Assembly: GCA_947626785.1 (NCBI GenBank)
Contig: CANQTO010000002.1
Span: 29,712-93,711, forward strand
Reading direction: 5' to 3'
Source of the DNA: an uncultured Oscillospiraceae bacterium
GTDB taxonomy: Bacteria; Bacillota; Clostridia; Oscillospirales; Oscillospiraceae
DNA length: 64,000 nucleotides
The position numbers and the translations under genes were made by a program. The notes beneath the pieces are model-generated. The model was not told the origin of the DNA. It saw nothing but the letters and a program-made list of their open reading frames with translations, and made no database searches. Positions 3,759 to 61,018 of this stretch are shown piece by piece (positions within the stretch are counted from its first letter, which is position 1; each line of letters begins with the position of its first letter).

Positions 3759-4862
3759 TCAGCCCTGCCGCGGGCTGAATCTGTATTTTCCTTTTCCGGA
3801 TCCGGCGACCCGTTCTATGAAGCCCTTCTCTTCCAGCTCATGGAGCAGCTCGGTGCTTCTGGTCGGTCTCAGGTCAAGGACTCTCTGCACATCCGATCTG
3901 CCGAAGATCGTTTGAAAGCCAAATTCCTCCAGCAATTTGCCAGCATGGGAAGCGGTCTTTGCCGTAAACAAGCCCTCAATGTTCGCTTTTGCGCTTTCAA
4001 TGTTCGCTTTTTCCGCCTCAATGTTCGCTTTTTCTGCCGTTTGAAAGGCGCCGCTGATGTGTAATGTCCGGTTATGGAGCGGATGATCCTCATTCAGCAG
4101 AAGGTTTCTCAGAAACAGCTCCAGGAACTCCGTCGTCTCATGGATGCCGTTTTTCAGGTCGTTATAGTTTGCGCGAACAAGGGAATTGCGAAAATACCAC
4201 GCGTTTTCAGCGAAAATATCATTTGTCACATCAAAGCCGAGCGTCCGCAGATACTTGATAAAAAACACCGCCGTTGTCCGGGTATTGCCCTCTCCAAACA
4301 CGTGGATCTGCCACAGTCTTGAGACGAATACTGCCAGGTGATGGATGATCTCATCCATGGAAAGACCGCGATAGGAAAAATTTTTCTCTTCAGAAAAATC
4401 GTAGTCAAGCGTCGCTCTGAGCTCCGAGGCGCTGCCGTAGAGCACGGTCGCGCCATCGAGCACCCATTCCTTTTTCACAATGTTGTAATCCCGGATCCGC
4501 CCTGCATGAGAATAGATACCGGTGAACAGCTTTCGGTGAATAGAGAGATATTCATTGGGCGTAAAGCTGAACGCCCGCTCAGAGAGCAGAGCCGCGATCC
4601 TGGCCGAGACCTTGTCAGCCTCTTCTGTGCGATCTTCAGCCGTGTGGGAAGGGTTCTCCTCATAATAAGTCTGAAGAAGCGCGTTTGCCTCTTCAAAGGA
4701 TATCTCGCCCTCAATATTGCGGACCGCTGTGCGCGCCAAATATTCGGATGTCTTCAGCCCGTCCACGGCCTGTAGTCCAATAGCCGTATGCCAGGCATAC
4801 CCCTTATCCCGCTTATCCGGTTCACATTCTCTGATGTATTCCTTAAAAGGATCTTGGTTCAC
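3759..4862 (-). CDS. Fic-domain protein (probable AMP-transferase) with winged-helix C-terminus
   Basis: 367 residues. The Fic core carries HVFGEGNTR at 187-195 in place of the usual HPFxxGNGR: the catalytic His, Phe, Glu-Gly-Asn and Arg are kept but the second Gly is Thr. RNIEGEI at 48-54 lies where N-terminal inhibitory (S/T)xxxEG helices sit, though the Ser/Thr is not in place. Residues about 275-300 are three short repeats (EKANIEAEKANIES), then a winged-helix-like end (RPTRSTELLHELEEKGFIERV). Such Fic proteins modify host proteins or nucleic-acid-associated targets; AMPylation is inferred. AAAGGTGA precedes the start. It is transcribed away from the prophage. Confidence 0.85.
   Translation of the reverse strand: MNQDPFKEYIRECEPDKRDKGYAWHTAIGLQAVDGLKTSEYLARTAVRNIEGEISFEEANALLQTYYEENPSHTAEDRTEEADKVSARIAALLSERAFSFTPNEYLSIHRKLFTGIYSHAGRIRDYNIVKKEWVLDGATVLYGSASELRATLDYDFSEEKNFSYRGLSMDEIIHHLAVFVSRLWQIHVFGEGNTRTTAVFFIKYLRTLGFDVTNDIFAENAWYFRNSLVRANYNDLKNGIHETTEFLELFLRNLLLNEDHPLHNRTLHISGAFQTAEKANIEAEKANIESAKANIEGLFTAKTASHAGKLLEEFGFQTIFGRSDVQRVLDLRPTRSTELLHELEEKGFIERVAGSGKGKYRFSPRQG
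3977..4039 (-). repeat. Three 21-bp tandem repeats inside the Fic gene
   Basis: Units begin at 3977, 3998 and 4019, each opening with CAATGTTCGCTTTT on the plus strand. They encode the seven-residue EKANIEA-type repeat between the Fic fold and the winged helix. Number of units could vary by slippage without a frameshift. Confidence 0.85.
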
Positions 4863-8703: not shown

Positions 8704-8731
8704 AAGCACATTTTGAAAGGAGATGCTGAAC

Positions 8732-9088
8732 ATGTACGTTTACGAGAATCCCGAACCTAACGAGACAACAGCGGAAAAACTTGTGAGAAAAGCGAGGGAG
8801 CTGGCCAATAACGGCCGGGCGTGGTACTACAGAAACAGAGAGGATATTCTCCTGTTCGGGCCGATCGTATTCAGCCTGTCCGGGACTCTTGTTAGGGTCG
8901 TCGGCAAGCGGATCAATCTGCACAAGCAGGAAGACATCAAGAATCTGTACTGCTATGACCGCTCGCTCGGCCACTATTGGGCACTTCGGAGAGAGCTCAC
9001 CAACAAGGAGTGGCTGATGATCGATCAGAGGAAGAAAAACGGGGAGCGTTTGAGCGACATTTTGGCGGAGCTGAAAGTGCTTAAATGA
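8732..9088 (+). CDS. Conserved phage protein, unknown function
   Basis: 118 residues from the ATG at 8732; AAAGGAG is too close to the upstream ATG at 8723. Helical, basic, with AWYYRNREDILLFGPIVFSL in the middle (a weak membrane segment) and a C-terminus ending DILAELKVLK. A hairpin with poly-T at about 9101-9127 follows. No family function known to me. Confidence 0.6.
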   Translation: MYVYENPEPNETTAEKLVRKARELANNGRAWYYRNREDILLFGPIVFSLSGTLVRVVGKRINLHKQEDIKNLYCYDRSLGHYWALRRELTNKEWLMIDQRKKNGERLSDILAELKVLK

Positions 9089-55664: not shown

Positions 55665-55904
55665 ATGACTACTCTTTATGAATTTGGGACTGAGATCATG
55701 AAGATCCGCGAAGCGATCGACAACATCACAGTCAAAGGAAGAGACAACGCCTCCTATGTGGTTTATGCCCATGACAGGTGCTCGGCGCTTATCAAGGAGA
55801 TAAACCGGATCACGGAGAGTCAACGCCAGCTCCAGGACGGTCAAAATGGAGCTGAAAAGGAGCGTGAAAACAATGGCGAGCCGGATACAGGAATGGCTGA
55901 ATGA
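55665..55904 (+). CDS. Small tail-region protein
   Basis: 79 residues from ATG 55665. MTTLYEFGTEIMKIREAIDN then VKGRDNASYVVYAHDRCSAL is a short helical protein commonly found between tip and fibre genes. Overlaps the fibre gene start by 32 bases. Confidence 0.65.
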   Translation: MTTLYEFGTEIMKIREAIDNITVKGRDNASYVVYAHDRCSALIKEINRITESQRQLQDGQNGAEKERENNGEPDTGMAE

Positions 55905-57750
55905 CATTCAGAACGCCATCTATGGCGCTGATGTCCGTGACGCGATACACGACAGTATCGAGGAATGCTACAACAACGTGACAGCCGGGCAGACTTTGGC
56001 AGACCAGGCCGCCAGTACCGCCAATGCCGCAGCGGCAGCAGCCAACAAAGCCAAAACCGACGCCGACACGGCCACTTCCAATGCGAACAAGGCAGCCGGA
56101 ACAGCCAATACCGCGGCCGAATCAGCGAACCAGGCTAAGGCAGACGCTGACGCGGCGGCGAAAAAGGCACTTGAAGCGGCGGACGCCGCAACTGCGGCCA
56201 AGGGCGAAACCGAGAAGGCGACGGAGGCGGCCAAGGAAGCCACGGAGAACACCAACACGGCCATCTCCAACGCGGAGACCGCGACCTCCAGGGCCAATGA
56301 CGCCACAAGCGCCGCCAATCTCGCGGCCGGGAACGCGACGAACGCTGTGGCCAATGCCAACACCGCCACCAGCTCCGCGAACGCGGCGGCATCGAACGCT
56401 ACGACCGCGGCGAGCAACGCAAACAGCAAGGCGGATCTGGCGAACACGGCGGCGACCAATGCCAATGAGAAAGCCTCCGCCGCAGACCTGGCAGCGACGA
56501 GAGCTACGACAGCGGCGACCAGCGCTAACGACGCGGCAAAGACGGCCAATGACGCGGCGGCAAATGCCAACGACAAAGCCTCGGCCGCGAATCTGGCGAC
56601 CACCAGGGCGAACAGCGCAACGACCTCGGCCAACAATGCGGCGGATCTGGCGAACGCGGCCGCCACTAACGCCAACAATGCGGCGGCAGACGCGGTGCTG
56701 AAAACCAACGACTGCAACACCGCCATATACAACGCCAATGTGGCCACCTCGGCGGCCAACACCGCGGCCGGCAGGGCGAACACCGCCGCAGAGACCATCG
56801 AGAACATGACGGTGACCTCGGAGAGCGTAGGACCGGACAGTCTGGCAGAAGCGATCCTATCCGAAGTGAGCGGGCATAAGAACATCCACTTCAAGCTGAA
56901 GCAGGGCGCCAACGGCGCGCCTTACATCATCAAGGGCAACGCTTACGCTTCCGTGGACGCGCTGGAAGAGGCCATCACTTCACCGGCGATCGGCGACCAG
57001 TACAACGTGGGCACGTCGGCCCCGTACAATGTGTACCGCTGGACCGGAACCACCTGGGAGGATCAGGGCAAGATCGGCATCTCTGTACTCAGCATGAGCA
57101 CGGAGGAGATCGACAGTATCTGGAACGGCACCGCGATCGAGAGCGCGGACAGAAAGTTCCTGGACCACACGGGACTATTCCACCTGATCAAGAACAAGAT
57201 CAAAGCGGCGTTCGACAAAAAGGTGGACAAGGTCGATGGCAAGGGACTGAGCTCCAAGGACTTCACCCAGGACTACATCGACCAGATCGAGAGCCATGAG
57301 TCCAGCATCAGCGCCCTGGTCAACACGAAGGTGGACAAGGTCGGGGACAAGATGCTGAGCACCAACGACTTCACCAACGCCTATAAGAACCAGGTGGACC
57401 AGAACAAGACGGATATCGCCTCTCTGAAGGACGGCAAGGTGGACAAGGTCGAGGGCAAGGGACTCAGTACCAATGATTTCACCGATGATTACAAGGATCA
57501 GGTGGATCAGAACAAATCCGATATTTCGGAGCTTCGGGAGTCCAAGGTGGATAAGATCCCGGGGAAGGTCCTGAGCACCAATGACTTTACGGACGCCTAT
57601 AAGAACAAGATCGACGAGCTGATGGAGATCATCGACGTGCTTGCCCGCACAAGGACCATCTGGAGAGAGATGGAGGATTCCTCGTCCGACAGCCTGACGG
57701 ATTCCGACGGCAACCCGATCTCCGGGCGGGTCATCTTCGCGCAGCTTTGA
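55873..57750 (+). CDS. Tail fibre protein, Ala/Asn-rich with KVDKVEGKGLS repeats
   Basis: 625 residues from ATG 55873 (AAAAGGAG upstream). N-terminal adaptor MASRIQEWLNDIQNAIYGAD VR-type start as in BppU-like baseplate proteins; about 35-310 an extreme TANAAADAANKA heptad array, a trimeric coiled-coil shaft; a small domain (APYIIKGNAYASVDALEEAI; YNVYRWTGTTWEDQGKIGIS); then four about 37-residue repeats with KVDKVEGKGLSTNDFTDDYK. It carries the host-recognition assembly, next to the diversified lectin gene. Confidence 0.85.
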   Translation: MASRIQEWLNDIQNAIYGADVRDAIHDSIEECYNNVTAGQTLADQAASTANAAAAAANKAKTDADTATSNANKAAGTANTAAESANQAKADADAAAKKALEAADAATAAKGETEKATEAAKEATENTNTAISNAETATSRANDATSAANLAAGNATNAVANANTATSSANAAASNATTAASNANSKADLANTAATNANEKASAADLAATRATTAATSANDAAKTANDAAANANDKASAANLATTRANSATTSANNAADLANAAATNANNAAADAVLKTNDCNTAIYNANVATSAANTAAGRANTAAETIENMTVTSESVGPDSLAEAILSEVSGHKNIHFKLKQGANGAPYIIKGNAYASVDALEEAITSPAIGDQYNVGTSAPYNVYRWTGTTWEDQGKIGISVLSMSTEEIDSIWNGTAIESADRKFLDHTGLFHLIKNKIKAAFDKKVDKVDGKGLSSKDFTQDYIDQIESHESSISALVNTKVDKVGDKMLSTNDFTNAYKNQVDQNKTDIASLKDGKVDKVEGKGLSTNDFTDDYKDQVDQNKSDISELRESKVDKIPGKVLSTNDFTDAYKNKIDELMEIIDVLARTRTIWREMEDSSSDSLTDSDGNPISGRVIFAQL

Positions 57751-57772: not shown

Positions 57773-58591
57773 GTGAAAATCAACGAATACACCAAGGTCA
57801 CAAAGCTGGACGCCAGCCATATTTTGCTGGTGGACGGTTCTACCGGCACCAAGACGATTCTGGCTCAAGACGCGCTGCTGTCCATGCTGAGCCTGATCTC
57901 GCCGGATACCCACCGCATGATCTTCCGGGGTAAGAACCTGGGCGGGTCCTTTACGGAGGAGCAGAAAGCGGCAGTGAAGGCCGGGACCTTTGACGGGCTC
58001 TTCTTGGGGGACTATTGGGTCATCAGCGGCGTGACCTACCGGATCGCCGACTTCGACTACTACCTGCGCTGCGGCGACACGGACTTCACGGCTCATCACC
58101 TGGTCATCGTGCCGGACGTGCCGATGTACAGCCATGTGATGAACGACGAGGCCAAGACCGAAGGCGGGTACTATCTGTCCAAGATGCACACGGAGGGGCT
58201 GACGGAGGCCAAGACCAAGATCAACGCCGCGTTCCCCAGCTCGGTGCTGACCCACAAGGAATATCTCGTGAACGCGGTCAAGGACGGCCGGCCCTCCGGA
58301 GGCGGCTGGTTCGAGTCCACGGTGGAGCTGATGAACGAGAACATGGTCTACGGCGGCAAGATCTTTTCTCCGGTCTCAGACGGGACCAACGTGCCTACGA
58401 ACTACACGGTATGCAAGTCCCAACTGGCGCTGTTCCAGGCCAAGCCGAGTTTCATCCACAACCGGCAGACTTTCTGGCTGCGTGACGTCGTGTCGGGGAC
58501 TACCTTCGCCTATGTGAGCGGCAATGGCACTGCGAACTACAACGGCGCCTCCGCCTCTGATGGCGTTCGCCCGGTCTTCATAATCGGCTAA
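57773..58591 (+). CDS. DGR target: variable C-type-lectin-fold receptor-binding protein
   Basis: 272 residues, AAAGGAG upstream. N-terminal virion-attachment region (MKINEYTKVTKLDASHILLV), a middle typical of this phage family (LFLGDYWVISGVTYRIADFD; MNDEAKTEGGYYLSKMHTEG; FPSSVLTHKEYLVNAVKDGR), and a lectin-type C-terminus FWLRDVVSGTTFAYVSGNGT ... GVRPVFIIG that holds the variable repeat. The retroelement rewrites this end, so the protein should contact the changing host receptor. A GC hairpin follows the stop. Confidence 0.9.
   Translation: MKINEYTKVTKLDASHILLVDGSTGTKTILAQDALLSMLSLISPDTHRMIFRGKNLGGSFTEEQKAAVKAGTFDGLFLGDYWVISGVTYRIADFDYYLRCGDTDFTAHHLVIVPDVPMYSHVMNDEAKTEGGYYLSKMHTEGLTEAKTKINAAFPSSVLTHKEYLVNAVKDGRPSGGGWFESTVELMNENMVYGGKIFSPVSDGTNVPTNYTVCKSQLALFQAKPSFIHNRQTFWLRDVVSGTTFAYVSGNGTANYNGASASDGVRPVFIIG
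58486..58573 (+). repeat. Variable repeat (VR) of the diversity-generating retroelement
   Basis: 88 bases at the 3' end of the target gene. Aligned without gaps to 59605-59692 it differs at 18 sites in 11 codons, all at codon positions 1 or 2; the third base of every differing codon is the same pyrimidine. Ends share GGCGTTCGCCCG, the homing-homology end. Confidence 0.88.
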
Positions 58592-58594
58592 TCC

Positions 58595-58620
58595 GGGGGC
58601 CCTGTGCCCCCTCGCGTTTT
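58595..58620 (+). promoter_or_regulatory. GC hairpin after the variable repeat (DGR cruciform-type element)
   Basis: GGGGGC CCTGT GCCCCC then TCGCGTTTTT, starting four bases past the stop. GC-rich hairpins at this spot promote retrohoming in known DGRs; the T-run shows it can also terminate transcription. Confidence 0.65.
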
Positions 58621-58971: not shown

Positions 58972-59112
58972 ATGAGCTCGAAATTTGAACTGGTAAAGAA
59001 ATACTTCGACCTGAAGGTCTGGAGTGTGGAAAGGGTCAAAATGGCCGTGGAAAAGAACTGGATCACCAGGGAAGAGTTCCAGGTCATCACGGGAGAGGCG
59101 TACAGCGAATGA
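58972..59112 (+). CDS. XkdX-family phage protein
   Basis: 46 residues: MSSKFELVKKYFDLKVWSVE then RVKMAVEKNWITREEFQVIT. This is the short XkdX family that follows tail-fibre genes in Firmicute phages (as in PBSX). AAAGGAG upstream. Its stop overlaps the Avd-like start by four bases. Role unknown. Confidence 0.82.
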   Translation: MSSKFELVKKYFDLKVWSVERVKMAVEKNWITREEFQVITGEAYSE

Positions 59113-59600
59113 GCGTTTTGGCTGCTAACCGGCGGGAAAGCCGCTTTGAGCCCATTGTCCGGGCGGAGGAGATCCATCAAATGCTGGTAGAGCTCGGCCA
59201 GCACCGGTTCAGCGTGAGAGATCTGAAGCAGTCTCTCCGAAGGAAATACAGAGCCGGAAAATGCGGAGAAAACGAGTACATCCAGAGCAGCTATCTGGCG
59301 GACAACGCCCGTAAACGGCTGGATACGCTGGGAGCCACGCTGACAAGCTATGTGCGGGCTGCCAACACGATATACCCCACCAACATGGAGGAGTATAACG
59401 AACGCCGGAGCAACCAAAATCTCGCCATCAACACCTGTGAGCAGATCATCAAGGAGATCCAGCATATCGTGGAGGTTTTTGACGTGGACCTGAATGTCTA
59501 TGACAGGTACGTCAAGGCCCTTTACCGGGAGATCGAACTTCTCAAGAAGTGGCGTCAGAGAGACAACCGTTTGAAATCATACTTTGAGGGCGACGACTAA
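59109..59600 (+). CDS. avd: DGR accessory protein (Avd-like four-helix bundle)
   Basis: 163 residues. After a basic lead-in, a helical bundle (YIQSSYLADNARKRLDTLGA; RRSNQNLAINTCEQIIKEIQ; YVKALYREIELLKKWRQRDN) with several surface Arg/Lys for nucleic acid. In known DGRs Avd is a pentamer that partners the reverse transcriptase. Its stop is followed within four bases by the template-position repeat, the canonical avd-TR order. Confidence 0.78.
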   Translation: MSVLAANRRESRFEPIVRAEEIHQMLVELGQHRFSVRDLKQSLRRKYRAGKCGENEYIQSSYLADNARKRLDTLGATLTSYVRAANTIYPTNMEEYNERRSNQNLAINTCEQIIKEIQHIVEVFDVDLNVYDRYVKALYREIELLKKWRQRDNRLKSYFEGDD

Positions 59601-59604
59601 AGCG

Positions 59605-59692
59605 CGTCGTGTCGGGGCCTCGCTTCGCCCTTGTGAGCGGCTGTGGCATTGCGGCCTCCTACCTCGCCTCCTTCTCTCTTGGCGTTCGCCCG
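59605..59692 (+). repeat. Repeat in the template (TR) position, depleted of adenines
   Basis: 88 bases lying between avd and the reverse transcriptase, where a DGR template belongs, and ending GGCGTTCGCCCG then GATTC, differing from the VR just past the shared end as real TRs do. However, at the diversifiable codons it has few A (for example CCT, CGC, CTT, TGT where the VR has ACT, ACC, TAT, AAT). Both copies fit a common AAY-codon ancestor, so this one appears mutated itself. Confidence 0.8.
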
Positions 59693-59806
59693 GATTCTTT
59701 ATAGCAGATTATGAAGAAGGAGTTGTCGTCCGTTCCGAGAGGATAAATCACATAAAGCCTGATGCGATTTACTACGGTAAGTATCGCTGGAACGGTGAAT
59801 AGTTCT

Positions 59807-61018
59807 ATGAAGTATGAGGAAATCATCTGTGACGCCAACAACCTGTACAAAGCATACAAGGCGTCTATAAAAGGCAGCAAGTGGAAAGAGACTACTCAAA
59901 AATTCATGCTGAGTTTTCTCAAGTACATTTTCGAGATCCAAGGCGACCTGGAGAACAGGACCCTGACCAATGACCCGACCCACGAGTTCACCCTTATGGA
60001 GCGGGGAAGGATACGGCCCATTTCAAGCATCCCGATCAAGGACAGGATCGTGCGGCATGTGCTGTGCGACGAGGTGCTGCTGCCTAAAGTAAAAGACCAT
60101 ATCATCTATGACAACGGAGCCTCTGTAAAGGGGCGTGGAATCTCCTTTCAGCGGAAAAGGTTTGAGGTCCATCTGCATCAGTTCTACGAGCAATACGGGA
60201 CTGACGGGTGGATCTTATTCGGCGATTTTTCAAAGTTTTACGACAACGTGATCCACGAGATCGCCAAGAAGATGCTGTTGGAGCTGGTAGATGACGACGA
60301 GTTTGTGGAATGGCTGCTGGATCTCATTTTCAAGGGATTTGAGATCGACGTGTCCTACATGTCCGACAAGGAATACGCCGGGTGCATGGACGCGCTGTTC
60401 AACAAGCTGGAGTACCGGAAGATCCCAAAAGAGATGCGTACCGGCGAGAAGTGGATGCCTAAATCCATCAACATCGGTGACCAGCTATCCCAAGTCATCG
60501 GGATCTACTATCCGAACCGCATCGACACATACGTCAAGTACGTCCGCAGTCAGAAGTTTTACGGGAGATACATGGATGATTGGTACATCATGAGTCATGA
60601 CCGGGAGGAGTTGCTGGATCTGCTCGGCAACATCCGGTCTATCGCGGAAGAACTCGGTATTCATCTGAACGAACATAAAACAAGAATCGTGCCGTTTAAG
60701 AGCCAGTTTACGTTTCTTCAAATCAAATACAGAGTCCGGCCTGACGGAAGGATCTCAAAGCGAATGACCTCCGCAAGAATTACGGCCATGCGAAGAAAGC
60801 TGAAGAAGCTGAGCGAAAAGGTCAAAATGGGTGAAATACCCTATGAGGGCGTGGAGGACATGTTCAAAAGCTGGATGGGCAGCTATTACAAGCTGCTGAC
60901 CAGAGAGCAGAGGCTGGGCCTTATGCGGCTGTATGAGGACCTGTTCGGCAAGAAGATCACCGTCGTAAAGAAAAAGCTGATTATTACGAACGCGGTTAGC
61001 ACACAAAACAACACATAG
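59807..61018 (+). CDS. DGR reverse transcriptase
   Basis: 403 residues from ATG 59807. Reverse-transcriptase fingers and palm: RGRIRPISSIPIKDRIVRHV, motif A LFGDFSKFYDN with Asp140, the DGR-type GDQLSQ at 224-229 (other families have QGxxxSP), catalytic YMDD 255-258, and a basic thumb (LKKLSEKVKMGEIPYEGVED). It copies template RNA with errors opposite adenine and replaces the VR. All catalytic residues are intact. Confidence 0.93.
   Translation: MKYEEIICDANNLYKAYKASIKGSKWKETTQKFMLSFLKYIFEIQGDLENRTLTNDPTHEFTLMERGRIRPISSIPIKDRIVRHVLCDEVLLPKVKDHIIYDNGASVKGRGISFQRKRFEVHLHQFYEQYGTDGWILFGDFSKFYDNVIHEIAKKMLLELVDDDEFVEWLLDLIFKGFEIDVSYMSDKEYAGCMDALFNKLEYRKIPKEMRTGEKWMPKSINIGDQLSQVIGIYYPNRIDTYVKYVRSQKFYGRYMDDWYIMSHDREELLDLLGNIRSIAEELGIHLNEHKTRIVPFKSQFTFLQIKYRVRPDGRISKRMTSARITAMRRKLKKLSEKVKMGEIPYEGVEDMFKSWMGSYYKLLTREQRLGLMRLYEDLFGKKITVVKKKLIITNAVSTQNNT

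Follow-up and report, generated by a model that had tools for sequence, protein, structure and literature searches.

A stretch of 64,000 nucleotides from an uncultured Oscillospiraceae bacterium (contig CANQTO010000002.1, positions 29,712 to 93,711; hereafter the window, meaning this stretch at its full length) carries, in a prophage, a diversity-generating retroelement (DGR) whose template repeat (TR) has lost nearly all of its adenines (Table 1). In known DGRs a reverse transcriptase (RT) makes complementary DNA (cDNA) from the TR RNA, placing random bases opposite A; this cDNA replaces a variable repeat (VR), whose targeting is aided by the region for initiation of mutagenic homing (IMH) and by a hairpin beside the VR. 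The element in the window is laid out like the BPP-1 type DGR of a Bordetella phage, with a tentative Avd-like gene, TR and RT gene in the same order, a VR at the 3' end of the target gene, a hairpin after the VR, and an RT that bears IGxxxSQ and YMDD. It differs from that type in that its VR/TR mismatches do not face TR adenines.

Table 1. Features of the DGR locus (positions in the window)
Feature	Coordinates	Strand	Basis or remark
DGR target gene, VR at C-terminus	57773..58591	+	open reading frame; DUF6273-like end, sub-threshold
Variable repeat (VR)	58486..58574	+	repeat search; keeps A at 10 sites that the template lost
GC hairpin 3' of VR, likely homing target element	58595..58611	+	6-bp stem, loop CCTGT
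Avd-like accessory gene, tentative	59109..59600	+	position; weak match to annotated Avd
Template repeat (TR), eroded adenines	59605..59693	+	3 A remain in the 87-nt block 59606-59692
Spacer RNA stem 1, predicted	59695..59718	+	arms 59695-59701 / 59712-59718; covarying pairs, 29 sequences
Spacer RNA stem 2, predicted	59764..59787	+	compensatory pair in window; alignment columns 97-120
DGR reverse transcriptase (RT)	59807..61018	+	IGDQLSQ + YMDD; frame open from 59762; start inferred from P0121

The reading frame of the RT is open and contains both the (I/V/L)GxxxSQ motif, here IGDQLSQ, and YMDD. Among PDB structures the enzyme is similar to the RT chain of entry 8ub7 (E=1.5e-11), the BPP-1 DGR complex. 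A sister RT (P0121), found as protein only, is 97% identical to that of the window, and the target protein of a sister phage (P0002) is 81% identical. The end of the target gene scores 21.1 bits against PF19789, under the cut-off of 23.5, and the target protein matches 3977 proteins at E<=0.001, of which the best 120 are listed. The Avd-like protein is weakly similar, in a single comparison (26% identity over 76 amino acids, E=2e-5), to the protein annotated as Avd in Roseburia phage Shimadzu, and found no match in Pfam, NCBIfam, PHROG or PDB. Conserved stems are predicted in the RNA of the spacer between TR and RT, with two-sided changes in 8 of 27 pairs among 29 sequences. A GC hairpin follows the VR in 73 of the 74 family pairs and the TR in 2 of 74; in the window it is present downstream of the VR and absent downstream of the TR. 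Its loop is CTTGT, CTCGT or CCTGT in 70 of 73 cases; these loops, the CCTGT of the window among them, differ from the GRNA described in phage DGRs elsewhere (PMC3240598). Judged by sequence, the RT motifs, the spacer RNA and the hairpin after the VR look intact.

The two repeats measure 89 nucleotides (nt) each, one more than in a preliminary description of this DNA, which had recognised the pair itself correctly; they are 80% identical and lie 1119 nt apart. Direct comparison confirmed the 18 mismatches listed there, which fall in 11 codons, only at codon positions 1 or 2 and with the third base unchanged. The TR has a base other than A at all 18 sites, and no TR adenine faces a differing VR base, so that the A-facing mismatches by which DGRs are usually recognised are missing. 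For this reason we file the element as a DGR by descent with an eroded template, and not as a working diversifier. Of the 18 mismatches, 17 lie where the family consensus has one of its 24 A columns (hypergeometric P=1.1e-11). At the 11 mismatch codons this consensus reads AAY (Y being T or C) in nine and TAC in one, and the last codon has an initial A in some members of the family but not in all; the AAT/AAC ancestor proposed earlier for all 11 codons therefore holds for nine of them. Two more AAY codons are eroded identically in VR and TR.

If an ancestor is assumed from the relatives, one constructed to be identical to the window outside its A sites, 21 of its 24 A sites are lost in the TR and 11 in the VR. 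On the same assumption, 10 of the 21 adenines lost by the TR are still present in the VR, and the TR has A at none of the sites lost by the VR. Since the VR keeps these 10 adenines, and since promiscuity of DGR RTs is described for adenines in the template (PMC8144416), the present VR was, to judge from the two copies, not written from the present template. The two codons eroded alike were considered as proof of two rounds of writing and rejected: identical bases at 3 of 11 sites lost in both copies (again under the assumed ancestor) are within chance, and the sister VR also differs at those codons.

For comparison, loci were gathered by an RT search (53 viral and 40 from genomes; individual loci carry L numbers below), and a template was sought in 92 of these 93 (L058 omitted) by way of a conserved 3' motif. 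It was located in 75 relatives; the 17 without one include contigs starting inside or just before the RT and members of other DGR families. In the relatives the template lies between the Avd-like gene and the RT, as does the TR locus of the window. The preliminary description had called for related elements with an A-rich template at this place, and these exist: the 87-nt template block holds 19-30 adenines in 73 of 75 relatives, against 10 in L015, 6 in L027 and 3 in the window. The 76 templates, near-identical loci included, represent 44 distinct sequences.

An RT tree of 70 tips contains 67 with templates of 19-27 A and the three eroded ones, which fall in separate clades. By parsimony, the branch leading to the window carries 20 A losses and 3 other changes (Fisher P=7e-13), that of L015 14 and 0, and that of L027 18 and 1; elsewhere in the tree there are 37 losses of A and 80 changes of other kinds (codons 6-25). 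Similarly, the TR of the window differs from that of L067 at 20 of 23 A sites and at 5 of 64 others. These branch counts and the L067 comparison, like the 17 of 18 mismatches above and the base sharing between VR and TR given below, are independent of the assumed ancestor. Of the three non-A changes in the window, a single one affects a T site, evidence against a DNA mutator acting on both strands. The bases gained in the three eroded templates (G23 T19 C12) agree with the spectrum seen in the VRs of 63 normal pairs (G482 T260 C200; P=0.38). As read from these alignments, the erosion is real, specific to A and recurrent in the family.

Ordinary mutational decay of a dead DGR could let a functionless template drift. 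The losses, however, are nearly confined to the adenines of one strand and include many transversions, the RT frame of the window is open with both motifs present, and relatives whose RT stops early (L031, L051, L052, L056 and near-identical loci; the stops are possibly assembly errors) keep A-rich templates, and we give decay next to no credence.

We consider it probable that the template was overwritten by its own A-mutagenised cDNA (self-homing), as the preliminary description had proposed; the A-rich templates of the relatives, the near-exclusive loss at A sites and its recurrence among lineages and between sister pairs (below) support this reading, together with the VR-like bases gained and the preserved RT motifs and covarying spacer stems. 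The RT of the window would make A-mutagenised cDNA from its own TR RNA, and the TR locus would match that cDNA at least as well as the VR does, being protected mainly by its lack of IMH and hairpin signals. Occasionally the cDNA would land on the TR instead of the VR; each landing would turn some A into C, G or T, which the RT would not restore, and the loss would accumulate in the manner of a ratchet. Since the TR locus is fully homologous to the cDNA except at mutated sites, leaky targeting of the TR at a low rate is to be expected. How many rounds took place, and that a near-fixed sequence is now written into the VR, are matters we infer; the element would be almost unable to generate new variants.

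Some properties reported for other DGRs bear on this scheme. A 21-bp IMH element sets the direction of homing, and 8 bp of identity suffice to complete it (PMC3240598); in E. coli, DGR editing is affected by the direction of replication, and deletion of the hairpin impairs it severely but incompletely (PMC12875486). One source states that the DNA sequence of the TR stays unaltered (PMC10907252). In a literature search that covered articles without preprints or supplements, we recognised no paper describing natural erosion or self-mutagenesis of templates.

From 162 loci with a usable template, 31 disjoint nearest pairs were formed, with a flank divergence of <=8.5%. The loci of these sister pairs are disjoint, events are partly shared (L025/L029 and L043/L072 share a change), and changes are unpolarised. 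Within the pairs 43 of 853 A sites differ, against 15 of 2170 other sites (P=3e-13). The excess persists without two pairs with truncated TRs (43/787 against 15/2111), and also when L015 is left out in addition (29/762 against 15/2047; P=7e-8). The loss is unevenly spread, with no A site differing in 18 of 29 pairs and 1 to 14 in the other 11, and with the largest numbers in L015/L056 (14), L061/L063 (7), L018/L073 (5), L207/L208 (4), L034/L085 (3) and L025/L029 (3). For example, L015 and L056 differ at 14 A sites and no others, with 98.4% identity over 5.6 kb of flanking sequence and 2.7% divergence in the nearest 1.8 kb. Similarly, L061 and L063 differ at 7 template adenines despite 99.2% identity over 7.1 kb. 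Between L207 and L208, which are 99% identical across 3.7 kb, the template differs at 4 adenines and one other site; the VR of L208 holds all four eroded bases of its template. When five pairs were measured against flank divergence, L015/L056, L061/L063, L207/L208 and L034/L085 lay above expectation.

Less eroded templates were compared with their VRs in a set of 26, which takes in all partly eroded TRs with a VR (18 distinct; L056 lacks a VR, L088 and L097 were omitted, and 44 are not eroded). Of the 50 eroded sites in this set, 43 have the same base in VR and template, while the VR has A at 1 and some other base at 6; many of these changes concern single sites and are possibly old. Because of this match, partly eroded templates seem to have kept donating to the VR, or else transfer ran from VR to TR. 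The latter is the substance of the main rival to self-homing, namely gene conversion, in which homologous recombination put a VR allele, probably that of another phage, onto the template. An eroded TR does resemble a typical VR, the 43 of 50 matches would result from either direction of transfer, and target genes diverge more than RTs in sister phages (81% for P0002, 97% for P0121), as exchange would have it. The present VR of the window is nevertheless excluded as donor, since at the 20 eroded consensus sites of the TR it shares the base at only 3, the others being A (9 sites) or some different base (8 sites); likewise the VR shares none of 3 eroded bases in L085 and none of 2 in L071. The same low sharing makes the TR of the window look like a fresh, deep case of erosion, unless the target gene was exchanged later. 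Moreover, identity at the repeat ends between VR and TR extends over 13 and 14 nt only, which is short for RecA-type exchange. DGR editing in E. coli is itself reported as independent of RecA (PMC12875486). On balance we hold such conversion, probably between phages, to be unlikely, and self-homing to be the best single mechanism.

A further variant would have the template eroded in another phage and then imported through recombination. Module exchange seems to occur among phages of this DGR family. A 24-nt piece of the eroded TR, however, had no exact match in viral contigs (from which records near the window genome are possibly excluded), and self-homing elsewhere would still be required; we regard import as highly improbable.

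A technical origin, in which VR reads became joined to the TR locus during assembly or in the polymerase chain reaction, had been raised early on as a mixing of reads. The source is indeed a draft assembly of 98 contigs, and the loci L015 and L027 lie on viral contigs that were derived from metagenomes. The longest exact word common to the TR locus and the remainder of the window, however, is 14 nt, the TR sequence differs from the assembled VR, and a smaller erosion (3 A sites, no others) occurs in L085, a record titled [Ruminococcus] torques ATCC 27756; such a chimera is thus very unlikely. Nor was another template found elsewhere, a second possibility raised in the preliminary description: the 2.75 Mb source assembly contains a single DGR RT match and no third repeat copy or second template, only matches of 14-21 nt beyond the two known copies. 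No close RT relative with DNA was found in the genus, the best match in 101 other genomes having 39% identity over part of the RT, and a search of 399 other genomes of the same taxonomic family gave one 47% match at E<=1e-100.

Several observations weigh against self-homing, or at least against its simplest form. No hairpin like that of the VR follows the TR in any of the three eroded loci, nor in 72 of 74 pairs, and self-targeting should for that reason be rare. The loss in the window (21 of 24 sites under the assumed ancestor) exceeds the VR median of 0.64 (maximum 0.87, 63 pairs; P=0.01, or 0.11 at a rate of 0.75), which suggests, without proving it, that the template went through several rounds or through some unusual event. 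The window's own gained bases (T8 C7 G6) are less G-rich than those of VRs, without reaching significance (P=0.11). The five sites of L018/L073 show no clear excess over flank divergence (P=0.06), and L061/L063 and L027 each include one change at a non-A site. In several lineages the last AAY codon has become CTT, an outcome more uniform than random mutagenesis predicts and one that suggests recombination or selection. Finally, the position of erosion follows no consistent 3'-to-5' polarity, being near the 3' end in L073 and L085 and in the 5' half in L063 and L208. We had considered 3' polarity as support, given that 18 of the 37 losses outside the three eroded branches fall in the last two AAY codons, and dropped it because L063 and L208 contradict it.

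Whether DGR templates in general are not immutable, in that self-writing recurs, A is lost one way, partly eroded templates keep donating and so freeze the target codon by codon, and a fixed-sequence cassette like that of the window is the endpoint, we judge an evenly balanced question. If self-homing does wear templates down, DGRs carry a limit to their own lifetime, their directionality signals (IMH and hairpin) are leaky, and part of the variation between DGR templates is a record of past self-targeting. If the loss is indeed a ratchet, natural A-rich templates would owe their persistence to selection or to replacement by those of other phages. In engineered DGR mutagenesis, template erosion would quietly narrow the library.

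Detectors that look for A-facing mismatches would miss eroded elements; DiGReF, for example, is described as demanding A substitutions (PMC3521204). The same paper reports DGRs with a broken RT and intact repeats, which like the element in the window are no longer full diversifiers, the difference being that in the window the RT is open and the TR worn. Seven DGR clusters with <75% A-facing mismatches, reported by Roux et al. 2021 (PMC8144416), likewise lack the usual A bias while seeming to be genuine DGRs. We also scanned 100 loci, mostly of other DGR families (91 with a repeat), for VR adenines facing a template base other than A, and found five in L209, two in L063 and one each in L224, L228 and L253. 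The five in L209 lie between its repeats at 1602-1689 and 2287-2374; this locus has no close sister and was not counted.

Some minor observations concern the relatives. Premature stops (at codons 141-341 within the matched part) interrupt the RT frame of L031, L032, L051, L052, L053, L054 and L056, although their templates are A-rich; several of these loci are near-identical to one another. In L105 (about 3875-4489) only RT residues 250-412 match, directly after an A-rich template, and the front of the RT gene is seemingly missing. L030 has a second VR-like copy of its template far downstream (8728-8809), possibly pointing to two targets. In the window itself, four tandem 108-nt repeats (63-70% identical to the reference copy) lie at 57220-57651, within a tail-fibre-like open reading frame (55846-57750).
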